Below, one piece after another: positions 20,939 through 27,036 of a DNA stretch of 64,000 nucleotides; positions within the stretch are counted from its first letter, which is position 1, and each line of letters starts with the position of its first letter. The notes under the pieces were generated by a model that ran no database searches, was not told where the DNA came from, and worked only from the letters and a program-made list of their open reading frames with translations. The position numbers and the translations under genes are program-made. Origin of the DNA: Butyrivibrio sp. (GTDB lineage Bacteria > Bacillota > Clostridia > Lachnospirales > Lachnospiraceae); contig NZ_JAGBLU010000137.1 of assembly GCF_017635265.1 (NCBI RefSeq), positions 1-64,000 on the forward strand, in the 5' to 3' direction.

Positions 20939-22021
20939 ATGTCAAGAGTTTATAATTTTAGTGCCGGACCAGCAGTGCTGCCGGAAGAAGTGCTTAAGCA
21001 GGCAGCTGCAGAGATGCTCGATTACAACGGATGCGGTATGTCAATCAACGAGATGAGCCATAGATCCAAGACCTTTGATAATGTCATTCAGACAGCCGAA
21101 CAGGATATCAGGGATCTCATGAATATTCCTGACAATTATAAGGTTCTCTTTTTACAGGGAGGCGCAAGCCAGCAGTTTGCAGCAGTTCCTCTGAACCTTA
21201 TGAAAAATGGCAAGGCAGCATATATTATCACAGGACAGTGGGCTAAAAAAGCATATCAGGAAGCGCAAAAGTATGGTGAAGCCATAGAAGTTGCTTCAAG
21301 TGCTGACAAAACTTTCTCCTATATTCCGGATTGCTCAGATCTTCCGATACCGGAAGATGCTGATTATGTTTATATCTGCGAGAATAACACAATTTATGGC
21401 ACCAAGTTTAAGACTCTGCCAAACACTAAAGGACATATTCTTGTTTCGGATGTTTCTTCATGTTTCTTATCTGAACCTGTTGATGTTACAAAGTACGGCG
21501 TTATTTATGGCGGTGTTCAAAAGAATGTCGGACCTGCCGGACTTGTTATCAGCATTATCAGAGAAGATCTTATCAGAGATGATGTTCCGTCATATACACC
21601 TACAATGCTCAAATGGAAAACTCAGGCAGATAACGGTTCTTTGTATAACACACCAAACTGCTGGAGTATTTATATGTGCGGTCTTGTGTTCAAATGGCTT
21701 AAGGCTCAGGGCGGACTTGAGGAAATGAAAAAGCGCAATGAGGAAAAGGCAGCAATTCTGTATGATTATCTTGACCAGAGCAAAATGTTTAAGGGTACCG
21801 TTCGCAAGGAAGACCGTTCACTTATGAATGTACCGTTTATTACTGATAGTGATGAACTTAATGCTGAATTCATTGCAGAAGCTACAAAAGCAGGATTTGT
21901 CAGTCTTAAGGGACATAGAACTGTTGGTGGTATGAGAGCAAGCATATATAACGCGATGCCTATAGAGGGCGTAAAGAAACTTGTTGAATTCATGGATAAA
22001 TTTGAAAAGGAGAGAGCCTGA
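20939..22021 (+). CDS. serC: Phosphoserine aminotransferase
   Basis: PLP enzyme transferring an amino group from glutamate to 3-phosphohydroxypyruvate to give phosphoserine. It starts with the typical NFSAGPAVLPEEVL-like block, and the PLP lysine is K195 in YGGVQKNVGPAG. The length of 360 is standard. AAGGAGGAG precedes the ATG by five bases. It is the first gene of serC-serA, three bases from serA, and has a long structured leader with a strong promoter. Confidence 0.96.
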   Translation: MSRVYNFSAGPAVLPEEVLKQAAAEMLDYNGCGMSINEMSHRSKTFDNVIQTAEQDIRDLMNIPDNYKVLFLQGGASQQFAAVPLNLMKNGKAAYIITGQWAKKAYQEAQKYGEAIEVASSADKTFSYIPDCSDLPIPEDADYVYICENNTIYGTKFKTLPNTKGHILVSDVSSCFLSEPVDVTKYGVIYGGVQKNVGPAGLVISIIREDLIRDDVPSYTPTMLKWKTQADNGSLYNTPNCWSIYMCGLVFKWLKAQGGLEEMKKRNEEKAAILYDYLDQSKMFKGTVRKEDRSLMNVPFITDSDELNAEFIAEATKAGFVSLKGHRTVGGMRASIYNAMPIEGVKKLVEFMDKFEKERA

Positions 22022-22024
22022 AGC

Positions 22025-23194
22025 ATGTATAAGTACAAATGTCTAAATCCTATCGCAAAGATTGGTCTTAATAATTTTACTGACAAATATGAAGCTGTCG
22101 ATAATGTTGACGATGCACAGGGGATTCTTGTCAGAAGCGCCAATATGCTTGAAATGGAGTTTTCCAAAAATCTTTTGGCTATAGCAAGAGCCGGCGCGGG
22201 AGTTAATAATATTCCGCTTGATAAGTGCGCAAAGGACGGTATTGTTGTTTTTAATACTCCGGGAGCCAATGCGAATGGCGTAAAAGAAATGGTTCTTGCT
22301 GCTATGCTCATTGCTTCAAGAGATATTATCGGTGGAACCGAGTGGGTTAAAGCAAATGCAGGTGATCCTGATATTGCAAAGCTTACAGAGAAGTCAAAAA
22401 AGAAATTTGCCGGAACTGAAATTTTTGGCAAAAAGCTCGGAATTATCGGTCTTGGTGCGATAGGTGTACGAGTTGCAAATGCTGCAAGACAGCTTGGAAT
22501 GGAAGTGTATGGATATGATCCTTATCTTTCAATTGATGCAGCATGGAGACTTTCTTCTGATGTTAAGCATGTTACTAATGTGGATGATATCTATTCTAAG
22601 TGTGATATTATCACAGTACATGTACCGGCTCTTGATTCCACAAAGGGAATGATCGGTCAGGAAGCTATTGCAAAGATGAAAAAAGGCGTTATCATCATAA
22701 ATCTTGCAAGAGACATTCTATGTGATGAAGTCGCAGTTTTGGCAGGAATCAATTCAGGAAAAATCAGAAAGTATGTTACTGATTTCCCTAATCCTACAAC
22801 AGCCGGACATGACGGATGCATTGTTATCCCTCATCTTGGAGCATCAACAGAGGAATCTGAAGATAACTGTGCTGTAAAGGCGGTTCTTGAGTTAAAAGAC
22901 TTCCTTGAAAATGGTAATATCAACAATTCGGTTAATTTCCCTAATTGTGATATGGGTGTTTGCAACAATCCGAGAATGGCTATTTATCACAAAAACATTG
23001 CCAACATGATCAGTCAGTTCACTACTGAAATAGGAGAGGCCGGTTATAATATTTCTGATATGACCAATAAGTCCCGTGGCGATTATGCGTATACTTTGAT
23101 TGACCTTGAAGATGGAATTGAAGATGCTCTTGTAAGTAAGCTTGAAAAGATAGATGGAGTTATAAGAGTAAGAGTTGTTAGAAAAGACGTATAA
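22025..23194 (+). CDS. serA: D-3-phosphoglycerate dehydrogenase
   Basis: First step of serine synthesis: NAD-dependent oxidation of 3-phosphoglycerate. A D-isomer 2-hydroxyacid dehydrogenase core is visible, with the nucleotide site GLGAIGVRVANAA, the catalytic Arg region NLARD and the HLGASTEES block (His-Glu pair). A short C-terminal ACT-like domain (about 320-389) follows, which in the family binds serine for feedback control. At 389 residues it belongs to the short class found in Clostridia. SD GGAGAG lies before the ATG, inside the serC end. Confidence 0.95.
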   Translation: MYKYKCLNPIAKIGLNNFTDKYEAVDNVDDAQGILVRSANMLEMEFSKNLLAIARAGAGVNNIPLDKCAKDGIVVFNTPGANANGVKEMVLAAMLIASRDIIGGTEWVKANAGDPDIAKLTEKSKKKFAGTEIFGKKLGIIGLGAIGVRVANAARQLGMEVYGYDPYLSIDAAWRLSSDVKHVTNVDDIYSKCDIITVHVPALDSTKGMIGQEAIAKMKKGVIIINLARDILCDEVAVLAGINSGKIRKYVTDFPNPTTAGHDGCIVIPHLGASTEESEDNCAVKAVLELKDFLENGNINNSVNFPNCDMGVCNNPRMAIYHKNIANMISQFTTEIGEAGYNISDMTNKSRGDYAYTLIDLEDGIEDALVSKLEKIDGVIRVRVVRKDV

Positions 23195-23263: not shown

Positions 23264-24517
23264 ATGGCTGACATAAGACCTTTTAGGGCATTTAGACCAA
23301 ATACGAATATAGTAAAGAAAAAAGCTGCACTTCCATACGATGTTTTTAGCAGAGAAGAAGCCTTCGAAGCGGTAAAAAACAATCCGGATTCTTTTCTTGC
23401 CATAGACAGGCCGGAAACGGGCTTTCCGAAAGACTATGATATGTATGCTCCTGAAGTGTACGAAAAAGCAAGGGATATGCTAAAAAAACAAATGGAAGAT
23501 GGCTCTTTTATTCAGGATGAGGAGAAGTGCTTTTATATTTATGAGCAGGTTTTTAAAGAAAGAAGCCAGACCGGAATCGTTGCATGTGCTTCTATAGATG
23601 ATTACCTTGGAGGAATTATTAAAAAGCATGAGAATACGAGAGCTGACAAGGAAGAAGACAGGATAAAGCATGTCTATACCTGCGATGCTCAGACCGGGCC
23701 GATATTTCTTTGCTACAGGAAAAACAGGCTTATTTCGGAGCTGGTTTCAAAGGTAAAAGAAGTGGATGAACCGGTTTATGATTTTGAATCAGAGGATGGA
23801 GTACATAATAAAGTCTGGGTTATTTCTGATGAAGATGAAGTAAATACTATCAGTAGAATTTTTACATCAATTAATTCCATTTATATTGCTGATGGACACC
23901 ACAGATGCGCGTCTGCGGTTAAAGTGGGACTAAAAAAGAGAGAGGAAAATGAAGGGAAAATAAGAGGAAAGCTCAAATCGGATTATTTTTTGTCGGTTCT
24001 TTTTCCTGATGATGAACTTGAAATAATGGACTACAACAGAATTGTTAAGGACTTAAATGGACTTTCTGTTTCTGATTTTTTGAAAACTGTTTCTGAAAAG
24101 TTTGATATAGATAGAGAAAATGAGGCGGTTAAACCGGATCACAAGGGACAGTTTGGTATGTATCTAGATGGAGTATGGTACAGGCTTGAAGCTAAAGACA
24201 GTGTAAAAAAAGATGATGCTGTAGAAGGGCTTGATGTTTCTGTTCTTCAGAATGAGATTCTTTCAAAGGTTCTTGGCATTGACGATCCTAAAACCGATAA
24301 AAGAATAGATTTTATAGGAGGTATAAGGGGACTTTCTGAAATAGAAAGAAGGTGTCAAAATGGCTATGCCGTTGGATTTTCCATGTACCCTACTTCCATA
24401 GGTGAACTCTTTAGAGTGGCAGACTCGGGACGCCTTATGCCGCCTAAGTCAACCTGGTTTGAACCAAAACTCCTGAGCGGTTTATTTATTCATGATATCT
24501 GTGGTACAATAATATAG
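23264..24517 (+). CDS. DUF1015 family protein
   Basis: Cytoplasmic protein of 417 residues with the DUF1015 pattern: N-terminal RPFRAFRP and ALPYDVFSREEA, central HENTRADKEEDRIKH and the signature IADGHHRCASAV (D210, H212, H213, R214), then the C-terminal RLMPPKSTWFEPKL. The biochemical role is not established in what I can see. The DGHHR motif resembles the short catalytic motif of ParB/sulfiredoxin-fold proteins, a fold that includes free-serine kinases, and the gene sits 69 bases behind serC-serA. A serine or phosphoserine role is an inference. GGAGG lies ahead of the ATG. Confidence 0.75.
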   Translation: MADIRPFRAFRPNTNIVKKKAALPYDVFSREEAFEAVKNNPDSFLAIDRPETGFPKDYDMYAPEVYEKARDMLKKQMEDGSFIQDEEKCFYIYEQVFKERSQTGIVACASIDDYLGGIIKKHENTRADKEEDRIKHVYTCDAQTGPIFLCYRKNRLISELVSKVKEVDEPVYDFESEDGVHNKVWVISDEDEVNTISRIFTSINSIYIADGHHRCASAVKVGLKKREENEGKIRGKLKSDYFLSVLFPDDELEIMDYNRIVKDLNGLSVSDFLKTVSEKFDIDRENEAVKPDHKGQFGMYLDGVWYRLEAKDSVKKDDAVEGLDVSVLQNEILSKVLGIDDPKTDKRIDFIGGIRGLSEIERRCQNGYAVGFSMYPTSIGELFRVADSGRLMPPKSTWFEPKLLSGLFIHDICGTII

Positions 24518-24555: not shown

Positions 24556-27036
24556 ATGAATAATAAGTTATATAAGATGATGAACTGGCCGGAAATTGAG
24601 GAGATTATTTACTCTGATGGCGATAATCCTCATAGAATTCTCGGGGCTCATAAGGTTGGTGCCAATTACCTTATTCAGGCCTTTTATCCTGATGCAAAAG
24701 AGGTAAGTGTTCTGGTTGAAAACACTAAAAAGACTTATCCTATGGAATTGGCGGATGAGGCCGGTTTTTATGCGGTTATTGTTCCGTATATAGAGAAACT
24801 TAAATATAAGCTGATAATTACAGATGTCGAGGGAAATGAAAAAGCTGTTGATGATCCTTATGCCTTCGGACCATATATGGACAGAGAGGATTTTATAAAG
24901 CTTGGAAGTGGCATCCATTACCATATTTATGAGAAGCTTGGTGCACATCCTATGAAAAGAGGAACTGTGCAGGGAACATTGTTTGCTGTATGGGCGCCGT
25001 CTGCTGCAAGAGTCAGTGTTATTGGCGATTTTAACAACTGGGATGGCAGGATTTGCCAGATGCACAGATTGGATCCAATGGGAGTATTCGAGATTTTTGT
25101 TCCGGGAGCCAAAGAAAATGACGGATATCAGTTTGAGATAAAAACCAGAAGCGGACTTATTTTTAAACGCCCTGATCCATATGCTATGCAGAGTCGTGGT
25201 GAAAATGGGATTATTTCTGTTATATGCTCCCGAAAATCAATTGTATGGAATGACTCCAAGTGGCTTGCTCAGAGAAGAAAATTTGAACTTGATGAAGCAC
25301 CGCTTTCAATATGCGAAATATCTTTGGAAGCTTTTACGGGGCGTCATGCCGAAAGAAGTTCCATAGAGGAGATTACATCTGACATTTTGGAATATGTTCA
25401 GAACCATGGGTTTAATACAATTGAACTTATGCCGGTTATGAAACATGTTCCGGGACATTTTTATCATATTTTGGATTTCTTTGCGCTTGATGATGCGAAC
25501 GGCTCTCCTGAAGAGTTCATGAAATTTATTGATGCCTGCCATGGTGCAGGAATAAGAGTGTTGCTTGACTGGGTTCCGACCTTTTTCCCGAAATCCTCCT
25601 GCGGACTTAACAGTTTTGATGGCAAGTGCCTGTATGAATATGAGGATCCAAGGATTGGCGTACATCCAAAGTCCGGCGATCTGATTTTTGATTATGGTCG
25701 CAAGGAAGTTACAAATTTCCTTATTTCCAATGCACTTTACTGGATAGAGACTTTTCATGTTGATGGTCTTAGAACCTCTGATATATCCAAGATTCTCTAT
25801 CTGGATTATGACAGAAAACCGGGTGAATGGATAACTAACATCTATGGCGGCAATGAAAATTTAGAAGCTTTGGAATTTCTTAAGCAGCTAAATACCGTTA
25901 TACATAAGAGCAATCCCGGCGTTATTATGCTCACAAAAGAGACGGCATGCTGGCCGCAGGTTACAGATACTGTTGATGATGGCGGACTTGGATTTGATTA
26001 CAAGTGGAACAACGGATGGACAAGAGATTTCTTATCTTACATGCAAAATGATCCTCTGTTCAGAGCCGGACATCATGATGAGCTTACATTTAGTATTATC
26101 TACAGCTATACAGAGAGATTTGTTTTGGGCTTTACACACGAAGAGCTTGAAAAGGGACTTGAAGGATTGTATTATCTGATGCCCGGTGACTCATCTCAGA
26201 AAATGGCAAATCTTCGTCTGGCAATAAGCTATATGATGGTTCATCCGGGGAGAAAACATCTTTATATGGAGCCGGATGCCCTTACTGTCGATCAGTCCAT
26301 TTTTGTAGAAAATATGCTTTCAAAGCTTAATAAGCTGTATTATGATCACGAAGCGCTTCATCAGCTTGACAGTTCTGACAGTGGTTTTGAATGGATAAAC
26401 AATATGGCTTCCGATGAGTGCATGCTTTCATTTGTCAGAAAAAGCAGTGATTCCAAGGAAATGCTTCTTGTAATAGCCAATATGGCCGGCGTTGAAAGGG
26501 AAATTGAGATAGGAGTTCCCGCAGACGGCAGATATACTGAAATTTTTAACAGTGATGATGTTTCTTATGGAGGAAGCGGAGTTTTAAATACCGGTAAAAA
26601 GGAAGCCAGAAGAAAAGAAGTTGATGGCAGGGATTATTCTCTTTCTGTCAGGATTGGGGCTGTTTCACTATGTATTTTCAGTTATGTTCCTTATACTGAA
26701 CAGGAAAAGAAAATACGTGCCATAAAGGAAGAGGAAGAGAACAAGAAAGAAGCTGAGCGTCAGGAAAAACTTGCTGCTCTGAAAGAAAAGCAGAGTCAGG
26801 AAGAAGAGAGACTTTTAAAAGAACTGAAAGAAAAATATGAAAGAGAACTTTTGGAGCAGGAAAAAGCTATAGAAGAAAAGTATGAGAAGATTGAGGAGGA
26901 GAGGATTCTTGGAATTGTGTCAGCTGATGCAATAAAGAGTATTTCAACCAAAAAGAAAAGTTCAACTAAATCTTCAAACGCTTCAGGTAAAGCCTCAACA
27001 AAAACAACTTCCAAAAACACAAAAAAGAAAAAGTAA
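24556..27036 (+). CDS. Glycogen branching enzyme homologue, probably catalytically inactive, with coiled-coil tail
   Basis: The 826-residue protein aligns by eye with GlgB (GH13): N-terminal module and CBM48 (about 20-220, FAVWAPSAARVSVIGDFNNWDG), then a barrel with YGGNENLEALEFL and GGLGFDYKWNNGWTRD. Yet the GH13 catalytic positions are changed: nucleophile Asp is S408 (GLRTSDIS for GLRVDAVA), acid/base Glu is K461 (LTKETACWP for IAEESTAWP), transition-state Asp is E529 (THEEL for SHDEV), and the region-I His is F343 (DWVPTFF). Residues about 710-785 are a charged coiled coil and the last 30 are Lys/Ser/Thr-rich. A glycogen-binding or scaffold role is inferred; it should not be called an active branching enzyme. 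Confidence 0.8.
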   Translation: MNNKLYKMMNWPEIEEIIYSDGDNPHRILGAHKVGANYLIQAFYPDAKEVSVLVENTKKTYPMELADEAGFYAVIVPYIEKLKYKLIITDVEGNEKAVDDPYAFGPYMDREDFIKLGSGIHYHIYEKLGAHPMKRGTVQGTLFAVWAPSAARVSVIGDFNNWDGRICQMHRLDPMGVFEIFVPGAKENDGYQFEIKTRSGLIFKRPDPYAMQSRGENGIISVICSRKSIVWNDSKWLAQRRKFELDEAPLSICEISLEAFTGRHAERSSIEEITSDILEYVQNHGFNTIELMPVMKHVPGHFYHILDFFALDDANGSPEEFMKFIDACHGAGIRVLLDWVPTFFPKSSCGLNSFDGKCLYEYEDPRIGVHPKSGDLIFDYGRKEVTNFLISNALYWIETFHVDGLRTSDISKILYLDYDRKPGEWITNIYGGNENLEALEFLKQLNTVIHKSNPGVIMLTKETACWPQVTDTVDDGGLGFDYKWNNGWTRDFLSYMQNDPLFRAGHHDELTFSIIYSYTERFVLGFTHEELEKGLEGLYYLMPGDSSQKMANLRLAISYMMVHPGRKHLYMEPDALTVDQSIFVENMLSKLNKLYYDHEALHQLDSSDSGFEWINNMASDECMLSFVRKSSDSKEMLLVIANMAGVEREIEIGVPADGRYTEIFNSDDVSYGGSGVLNTGKKEARRKEVDGRDYSLSVRIGAVSLCIFSYVPYTEQEKKIRAIKEEEENKKEAERQEKLAALKEKQSQEEERLLKELKEKYERELLEQEKAIEEKYEKIEEERILGIVSADAIKSISTKKKSSTKSSNASGKASTKTTSKNTKKKK

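Follow-up and report, generated by a model that had tools for sequence, protein, structure and literature searches.

The 64-kb window analysed here, a stretch of 64,000 nucleotides from a genome of Butyrivibrio (rumen bacteria of the family Lachnospiraceae), encodes GlgB2, a paralogue of the glycogen branching enzyme GlgB (glgB2, 24556..27036, 826 amino acids; this and all other window features given below lie on the + strand). GlgB2 lacks the residues for GH13 chemistry and is presumably catalytically inactive, and its conservation alongside a true GlgB, here called GlgB1, supports a pseudoenzyme maintained by selection. We lean towards reading it as a selected non-catalytic paralogue that would bind glucan and serve GlgB1 and other enzymes of glycogen metabolism as a partner or scaffold.

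The GH13 catalytic triad is absent from GlgB2

The position names used here (nucleophile Asp, acid/base Glu, transition-state Asp and region-I His) are those that we take to apply to GlgB. Residues were assigned by reference to Cyanothece GlgB (5GQZ, a mutant with its changes at other positions) and to GlgB1 of the same genome. The Asp/Glu/Asp triad, intact in GlgB1, is absent from GlgB2: alignment to 5GQZ, GlgB1 and relatives places S408 (25777..25779) at the nucleophile position, while K461 (25936..25938) and E529 (26140..26142) occupy the acid/base and transition-state positions. K461 is flanked by a new T460, a retained E462 and a new T463, and the alignment of relatives reveals a new Asp, D409 (25780..25782), directly after the nucleophile position. 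At the region-I His place, alignment to 5GQZ and relatives gives F343 (25582..25584). A first-pass annotation of this DNA had every GH13 catalytic position replaced. Alignment with a GlgB of known structure, the check it proposed, bears this out for S408, K461, E529 and F343, with GlgB1 in agreement, but D338, R406 and H528 are retained, leaving a mixed set of active-site residues. Its gap-free alignment at the active site holds for the motif blocks against 5GQZ and breaks down elsewhere: two stretches found in intact relatives are absent from the Butyrivibrio clade, a Trp-Gly following residue 302 and, following residue 574 (26275..26280), 16 columns that belong to a barrel loop.

The GlgB-type build is present, with CBM48, a GH13 barrel, an all-beta C-terminal domain and homology over the full length. 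As the first pass had noted, the frame is intact and long (826 residues) and a CBM48 domain is retained. Pfam detects GlgB_N at residues 11-102 (24586..24861, 109.9 bits), CBM48 at residues 127-210 (24934..25185, 102.1 bits) and the C-terminal all-beta domain at residues 613-709 (26392..26682, 59.6 bits). The (beta/alpha)8 barrel spans approximately residues 240-600 (25273..26355), and the Pfam Alpha-amylase model matches it only at residues 276-341. GlgB2 passes the cut-offs of two NCBIfam GlgB models, TIGR01515 (607.6 versus 463.95) and NF008967 (627 versus 577), so that automatic annotation would probably label it a branching enzyme, as had been anticipated, although it falls below the cut-off of NF003811, the top-scoring GlgB model (649 versus 741).

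The replaced residues are conserved across Butyrivibrio

Named relatives of the window protein at 92% identity are Butyrivibrio, and GlgB2 was matched at 50% identity or more in 75 of 79 Butyrivibrio genomes; completeness is 60-72% in the four that gave no such match. For residue comparisons, 224 distinct sequences (rows) were obtained from 257 loci with a match by merging those identical over residues 50-600; one locus (L002) was dropped and another (L003) gave no match. Approximately 62 distinct rows belong to the Butyrivibrio clade, fewer than the 75 genomes with a match. K461 and E529 occur in 62/62 of these rows, and residue 408 is Ser in 46, Ala in 10, Pro in 3 and Thr in 3. All 59 rows above 54% identity are of this K461/E529 type. 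The same replacements, found throughout the clade when relatives were searched for them, are carried by named isolates, B. proteoclasticus P18 and B. hungatei strains among them, and base errors are excluded by these relatives.

In comparisons of two near species pairs, the ratio of non-synonymous to synonymous substitution rates (dN/dS) of GlgB2 was 0.025 and 0.033, with synonymous sites near saturation; a third pair was saturated. The barrel was about as constrained as CBM48 in this comparison. GlgB2 nonetheless evolves faster than GlgB1, with dN of 0.053 and 0.060 versus 0.014 and 0.027 in the same pairs. The uniform K461/E529, the low dN/dS and the presence of GlgB1 alongside support the first-pass view of a pseudoenzyme under selection.

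Moreover, conservation reaches 97% or more at 36 positions where the residue is not the one that most intact relatives have. At thirteen positions, the intact relatives agree to 95% or more on one residue and the Butyrivibrio clade, to the same degree, on another. By sequence, seven of them belong to the catalytic motifs or adjoin them (T342, D409, T460, K461, T463, C465 and E529); the remaining six are I156, Q192, R205, F286, D419 and N486. On these conservation patterns, the motifs of GlgB2 are rewritten and fixed, not drifting.

The triad has been lost repeatedly in Lachnospiraceae

A form was called dead when any of the three triad positions differed from D/E/D. The family was sampled by a draw of 299 genomes, nearly one per genus, with matches listed down to about E 1e-171 and low-scoring relatives therefore missing. 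From this draw, 148 loci of 144 genomes were read: besides Butyrivibrio, at least 25 genomes have the dead form and at least 119 an intact one. Two intact loci apiece came from four genomes, and the intact relatives may include some rows closer to GlgB1 than to GlgB2. In other Lachnospiraceae genera, full-length relatives share approximately 37-48% identity with GlgB2 and are mostly intact (127 rows). All 10 rows read outside the family were intact, and most other-family genomes in an order-level draw had one match at E <= 1e-100. Given the intact relatives at the shared locus beside a DUF1015 gene, the ancestor of the dead form appears to have been an active glgB, at a locus that part of the family shares.

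Among the 34 dead rows from outside Butyrivibrio, all three triad residues are lost in 5, two in 15 and one in 14 (hand count); some of those with a single loss may still be active. A FastTree tree of 212 rows contained 13 all-dead clades and at least 10 changes, and an IQ-TREE tree of 86 rows, built with the motif columns excluded, contained 17 clades and at least 12 changes. The clade count thus depends on the method, and one of the 17 (four rows) has a support of 47. In a smaller initial tree, which included only 10 intact rows, 9 changes were counted. A single common clade of all dead forms was rejected, this constraint costing 214 log-likelihood units (p-AU 0.00036). Mutual attraction of fast-evolving dead rows is possible and long branches may distort details of the tree; such attraction would be expected to lower, rather than raise, the loss counts.

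Directly after the nucleophile position, 149 of the 152 intact rows have Ala and none has Asp or Glu. The Butyrivibrio clade has Asp there, and 17 of the 34 other dead rows have Asp or Glu, distributed over nine separate clades of the tree with Butyrivibrio included; Lys at 461 accounts for three changes on the same tree. This convergence argues for a shared new demand on the site or a shared structural compensation.

Two further patterns were seen outside Butyrivibrio. L218 and L255 have Lys at the acid/base position (AKET and AKEN), apparently as separate gains. A separate dead D/Q/R lineage (L135, L137, L138, L211 and L238), one of the nine clades with an acidic residue 409, keeps Asp at the nucleophile place together with Asp409, Gln at the acid/base place and Arg at the transition-state place.

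A second GlgB match accompanies the dead form in nearly all genomes

A second, catalytic glgB, whose presence had been proposed as a check, was found in the same genome. GlgB1 (C14:20829-22766, 646 amino acids) has the D/E/D triad; its matches to GlgB2 start at about residue 107-112, and it is without the GlgB_N part. A GlgB1 match is present in 78 of 79 Butyrivibrio genomes (in two pieces in one of them), and glgA scores above the family cut-off in 71/79, the other eight being 60-87% complete. Another GlgB match was found in 35 of 36 genomes with a dead GlgB2, counting four in which the GlgB1 match is in pieces (G088, G215, G558 and G565); in the remaining genome, G562, no other GlgB was seen. 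Two of these 36 (the genomes of L115 and L117) are apparently the Butyrivibrio genomes G040 and G049, with the same coordinates and bit scores. For the intact GlgB2-type gene, 20 of 119 genomes had no other match at E <= 1e-60. GlgB1-type catalytic residues were read in 13 rows, seven of them from dead-GlgB2 genomes, and all were intact. Related genomes are not independent in these counts, and the pattern of coexistence is as would be expected if the dead form were tolerated only beside an active enzyme.

C-terminal arm and genome setting

Residues 715-787 of GlgB2 (26698..26916) form a long charged helix rich in i/i+4 Glu-Lys/Arg pairs, followed by a basic Lys/Ser/Thr tail at residues 788-826 (26917..27033) with a net charge of +11 and low model confidence. 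In crude shuffling tests, the helix had 20 i/i+4 opposite charges against a shuffle mean of 12.5 (reached by 5 of 2000 shuffles) and showed no enrichment of heptads (0.50, a value that 1955 of 2000 shuffles equalled or surpassed). The heptad test spoke against a coiled coil, the initial interpretation of the tail, and the element was named a charged helix instead. The tail has a median length of 122 residues in GlgB2 versus 60 in intact relatives, whose tails are often Lys-rich.

The source genome is a draft of 4.15 Mb in 151 contigs, 88% complete, with the window on contig C115. Upstream of glgB2 lie a serC-like class-V aminotransferase gene (20939..22021), a serA-like 2-hydroxyacid dehydrogenase gene (22025..23194) and a DUF1015 gene (23264..24517), separated by 3 bp (serC-serA), 69 bp (serA-DUF1015) and 38 bp (DUF1015-glgB2). 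The DUF1015 gene, placed between serA and glgB2, is a frequent neighbour of glgB2 in Lachnospiraceae: among loci with enough upstream sequence, it lies no more than 600 bp upstream in 50/61 Butyrivibrio-clade, 12/25 other dead and 41/124 intact loci. Both serC and serA are also kept at several relatives' loci with DUF1015. Seven window neighbours (serC, serA, DUF1015, apt, relA and two more) were sought at the loci of relatives, and none of the seven was near the dead glgB2 at 11 Butyrivibrio-clade loci (L096-L100, L103, L104, L107, L110, L112 and L119). At L097, the genes downstream of glgB2 are, as we take their translations, mechanosensitive-channel-like and argininosuccinate-lyase-like. 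Elsewhere in the window, positions 42333-63938 hold a probable flagellar gene cluster, in which 3 of 10 proteins scanned with Pfam are of the FliF, FlgE/F/G and FHIPEP types.

Discussion

Strong preservation without catalytic residues, together with repeated change in related gut bacteria, suggests that GlgB2 is useful in a non-catalytic job, probably in glycogen handling. In the model that we moderately favour, the Lachnospiraceae glgB that is intact in most other genera would be the ancestor of Butyrivibrio glgB2; the glucan-binding scaffold (GlgB_N, CBM48, barrel and C-domain) would have been kept and GH13 chemistry given up. GlgB2 would then bind alpha-glucan through its retained modules without cutting it, assist the catalytic GlgB1 and further enzymes of glycogen metabolism as a partner or scaffold, and may shape where or how branches are set, with the charged helical arm and basic tail as a possible spacer and tether.

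Several observations weigh against this model. Cleft residues are partly lost (the 16-column loop, the Trp-Gly, Y308 and W373), so the cleft itself may no longer hold glucan; the loop is kept in about six to seven of ten non-Butyrivibrio dead rows. No glg genes adjoin glgB2, its upstream neighbours being serC, serA and DUF1015. For the second GlgB, readings of the catalytic residues cover only seven dead-form genomes. Finally, three conserved carboxylates (D409, E462 and E529) stand at the former triad or beside it and could form a relocated site.

The repeated losses (13-17 clades, with Asp/Glu409 in nine and Lys461 in three) could also mean more than simple loss: an enzyme may have been converted, time and again, into a protein that reads glucan or another ligand and whose pocket has acquired a shared new function. 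We put this forward tentatively, as less likely than not.

A role outside glycogen is unlikely, though worth weighing. The dead barrel would have been taken over as a sensor, or as a structural component, that recognises a different ligand, such as a small charged metabolite close to the new Lys/Thr/Asp/Glu residues, with a possible tie to serine biosynthesis through the gene order. The new fixed polar residues in the catalytic motifs fit such a role, as do the tightly spaced serC-serA-DUF1015-glgB2 order and the predominance of DUF1015 upstream in the Butyrivibrio clade. However, the same gene order is found beside intact, presumably branching relatives and hence predates catalytic loss, the neighbours are missing from the eleven Butyrivibrio-clade loci noted above, and GlgB_N and CBM48 are kept and constrained.

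A relocated active site, with D409, E462 and E529 (or residue 530) as shifted carboxylates that would support glucan cleavage, transfer or a new chemistry, seems improbable. Such a shift had been raised at first pass, and both D409 and E462 do exist. D409 is new, and the recurrence of Asp/Glu at this site in nine dead clades and in no intact row would fit the proposal. E462, although nearly invariant, is shared with active-type GlgBs, where it stands beside the real acid/base, and is therefore no substitute acid/base by itself. Lys at the acid/base place, the loss of the region-I His and the loop deletions also speak against it, and the register of R406 is unchanged in the Butyrivibrio clade, hence D409 is three residues from R406, not two.

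Decay of the gene under relaxed selection, with the protein disappearing, would fit its faster evolution relative to GlgB1, but is very improbable and, as far as sequence tells, refuted by a dN/dS of about 0.03 (near-saturated synonymous sites), the 75/79 genomes and the 36 highly conserved positions. A sequencing or assembly error, conceivable in a draft of this kind, is refuted by the isolates with the same replacements and deserves practically no weight.

Compared with GlgB of GH13 (solved examples 5GQU from Cyanothece and 1M7X from E. coli), GlgB2 has the triad and region-I His replaced, lacks the Trp-Gly and the 16-column loop, and has the long charged helix and basic tail. With the intact Lachnospiraceae relatives it shares the N-terminal domain and, in part, the gene order, but their triad is intact and their tails are shorter. 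In the same pathway, GlgD of Firmicutes is a non-catalytic partner of GlgC, thought to act via its active partner. Like GlgB2, GlgD is a paralogue of an active enzyme, although fold and step are unrelated. PTST-type starch scaffolds combine CBM48 with a coiled coil; GlgB2 has the CBM48, whereas its helix has the i/i+4 charge excess in place of a heptad excess.

The nearest precedent for a partner or scaffold role is plant ISA2, which PMC12510319 describes as a noncatalytic isoamylase paralogue (GH13_11) that binds to ISA1 and influences the relative amounts of glucan forms. As described there, ISA2 resembles GlgB2 in being a faster-evolving GH13 paralogue with catalytic residues replaced across a large clade, a catalytic paralogue alongside, and a CBM48 and an N-terminal domain absent from the catalytic partner (PMC12510319). 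GlgB2 likewise combines clade-wide replacement under purifying selection with a catalytic paralogue in the same genome. The two differ in that GlgB2 belongs to branching, not debranching, with many separate losses against a loss already present in a common ancestor for ISA2; the N-terminal domain is new in ISA2, whereas intact GlgB relatives have that of GlgB2; and complex formation is reported for ISA2 (PMC12510319), while for GlgB2 a partnership is proposed here. A bacterial branching module reported inactive is also described in PMC11046441, for the GlgA-GlgB fusion of Criblamydiaceae and Waddliaceae; GlgB2 differs in being a stand-alone gene with point replacements and a complete GlgB1 alongside.

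Within the genus, a published Butyrivibrio hungatei genome lists an 824-amino-acid glgB2 as a branching enzyme, probably the same gene as that of the window by name and length. A B. fibrisolvens glgB was treated by Rumbak (1991), as cited in PMC9960391. No description of these GlgB forms as non-catalytic was found among the papers listed by searches of open-licence PubMed Central literature; non-catalytic GH13 paralogues as such are already known.

These results correct the annotation of a gene that passes two GlgB cut-offs without a catalytic triad. Non-catalytic GH13 paralogues are best known from plants, with ISA2 as the example, and the bacterial glycogen pathway looks like a case of the same principle, reached many times. 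The dead forms of Lachnospiraceae would offer natural replicates, in culturable organisms, for exploring why a dead enzyme copy is retained in a pathway and what converges after the active site is lost.
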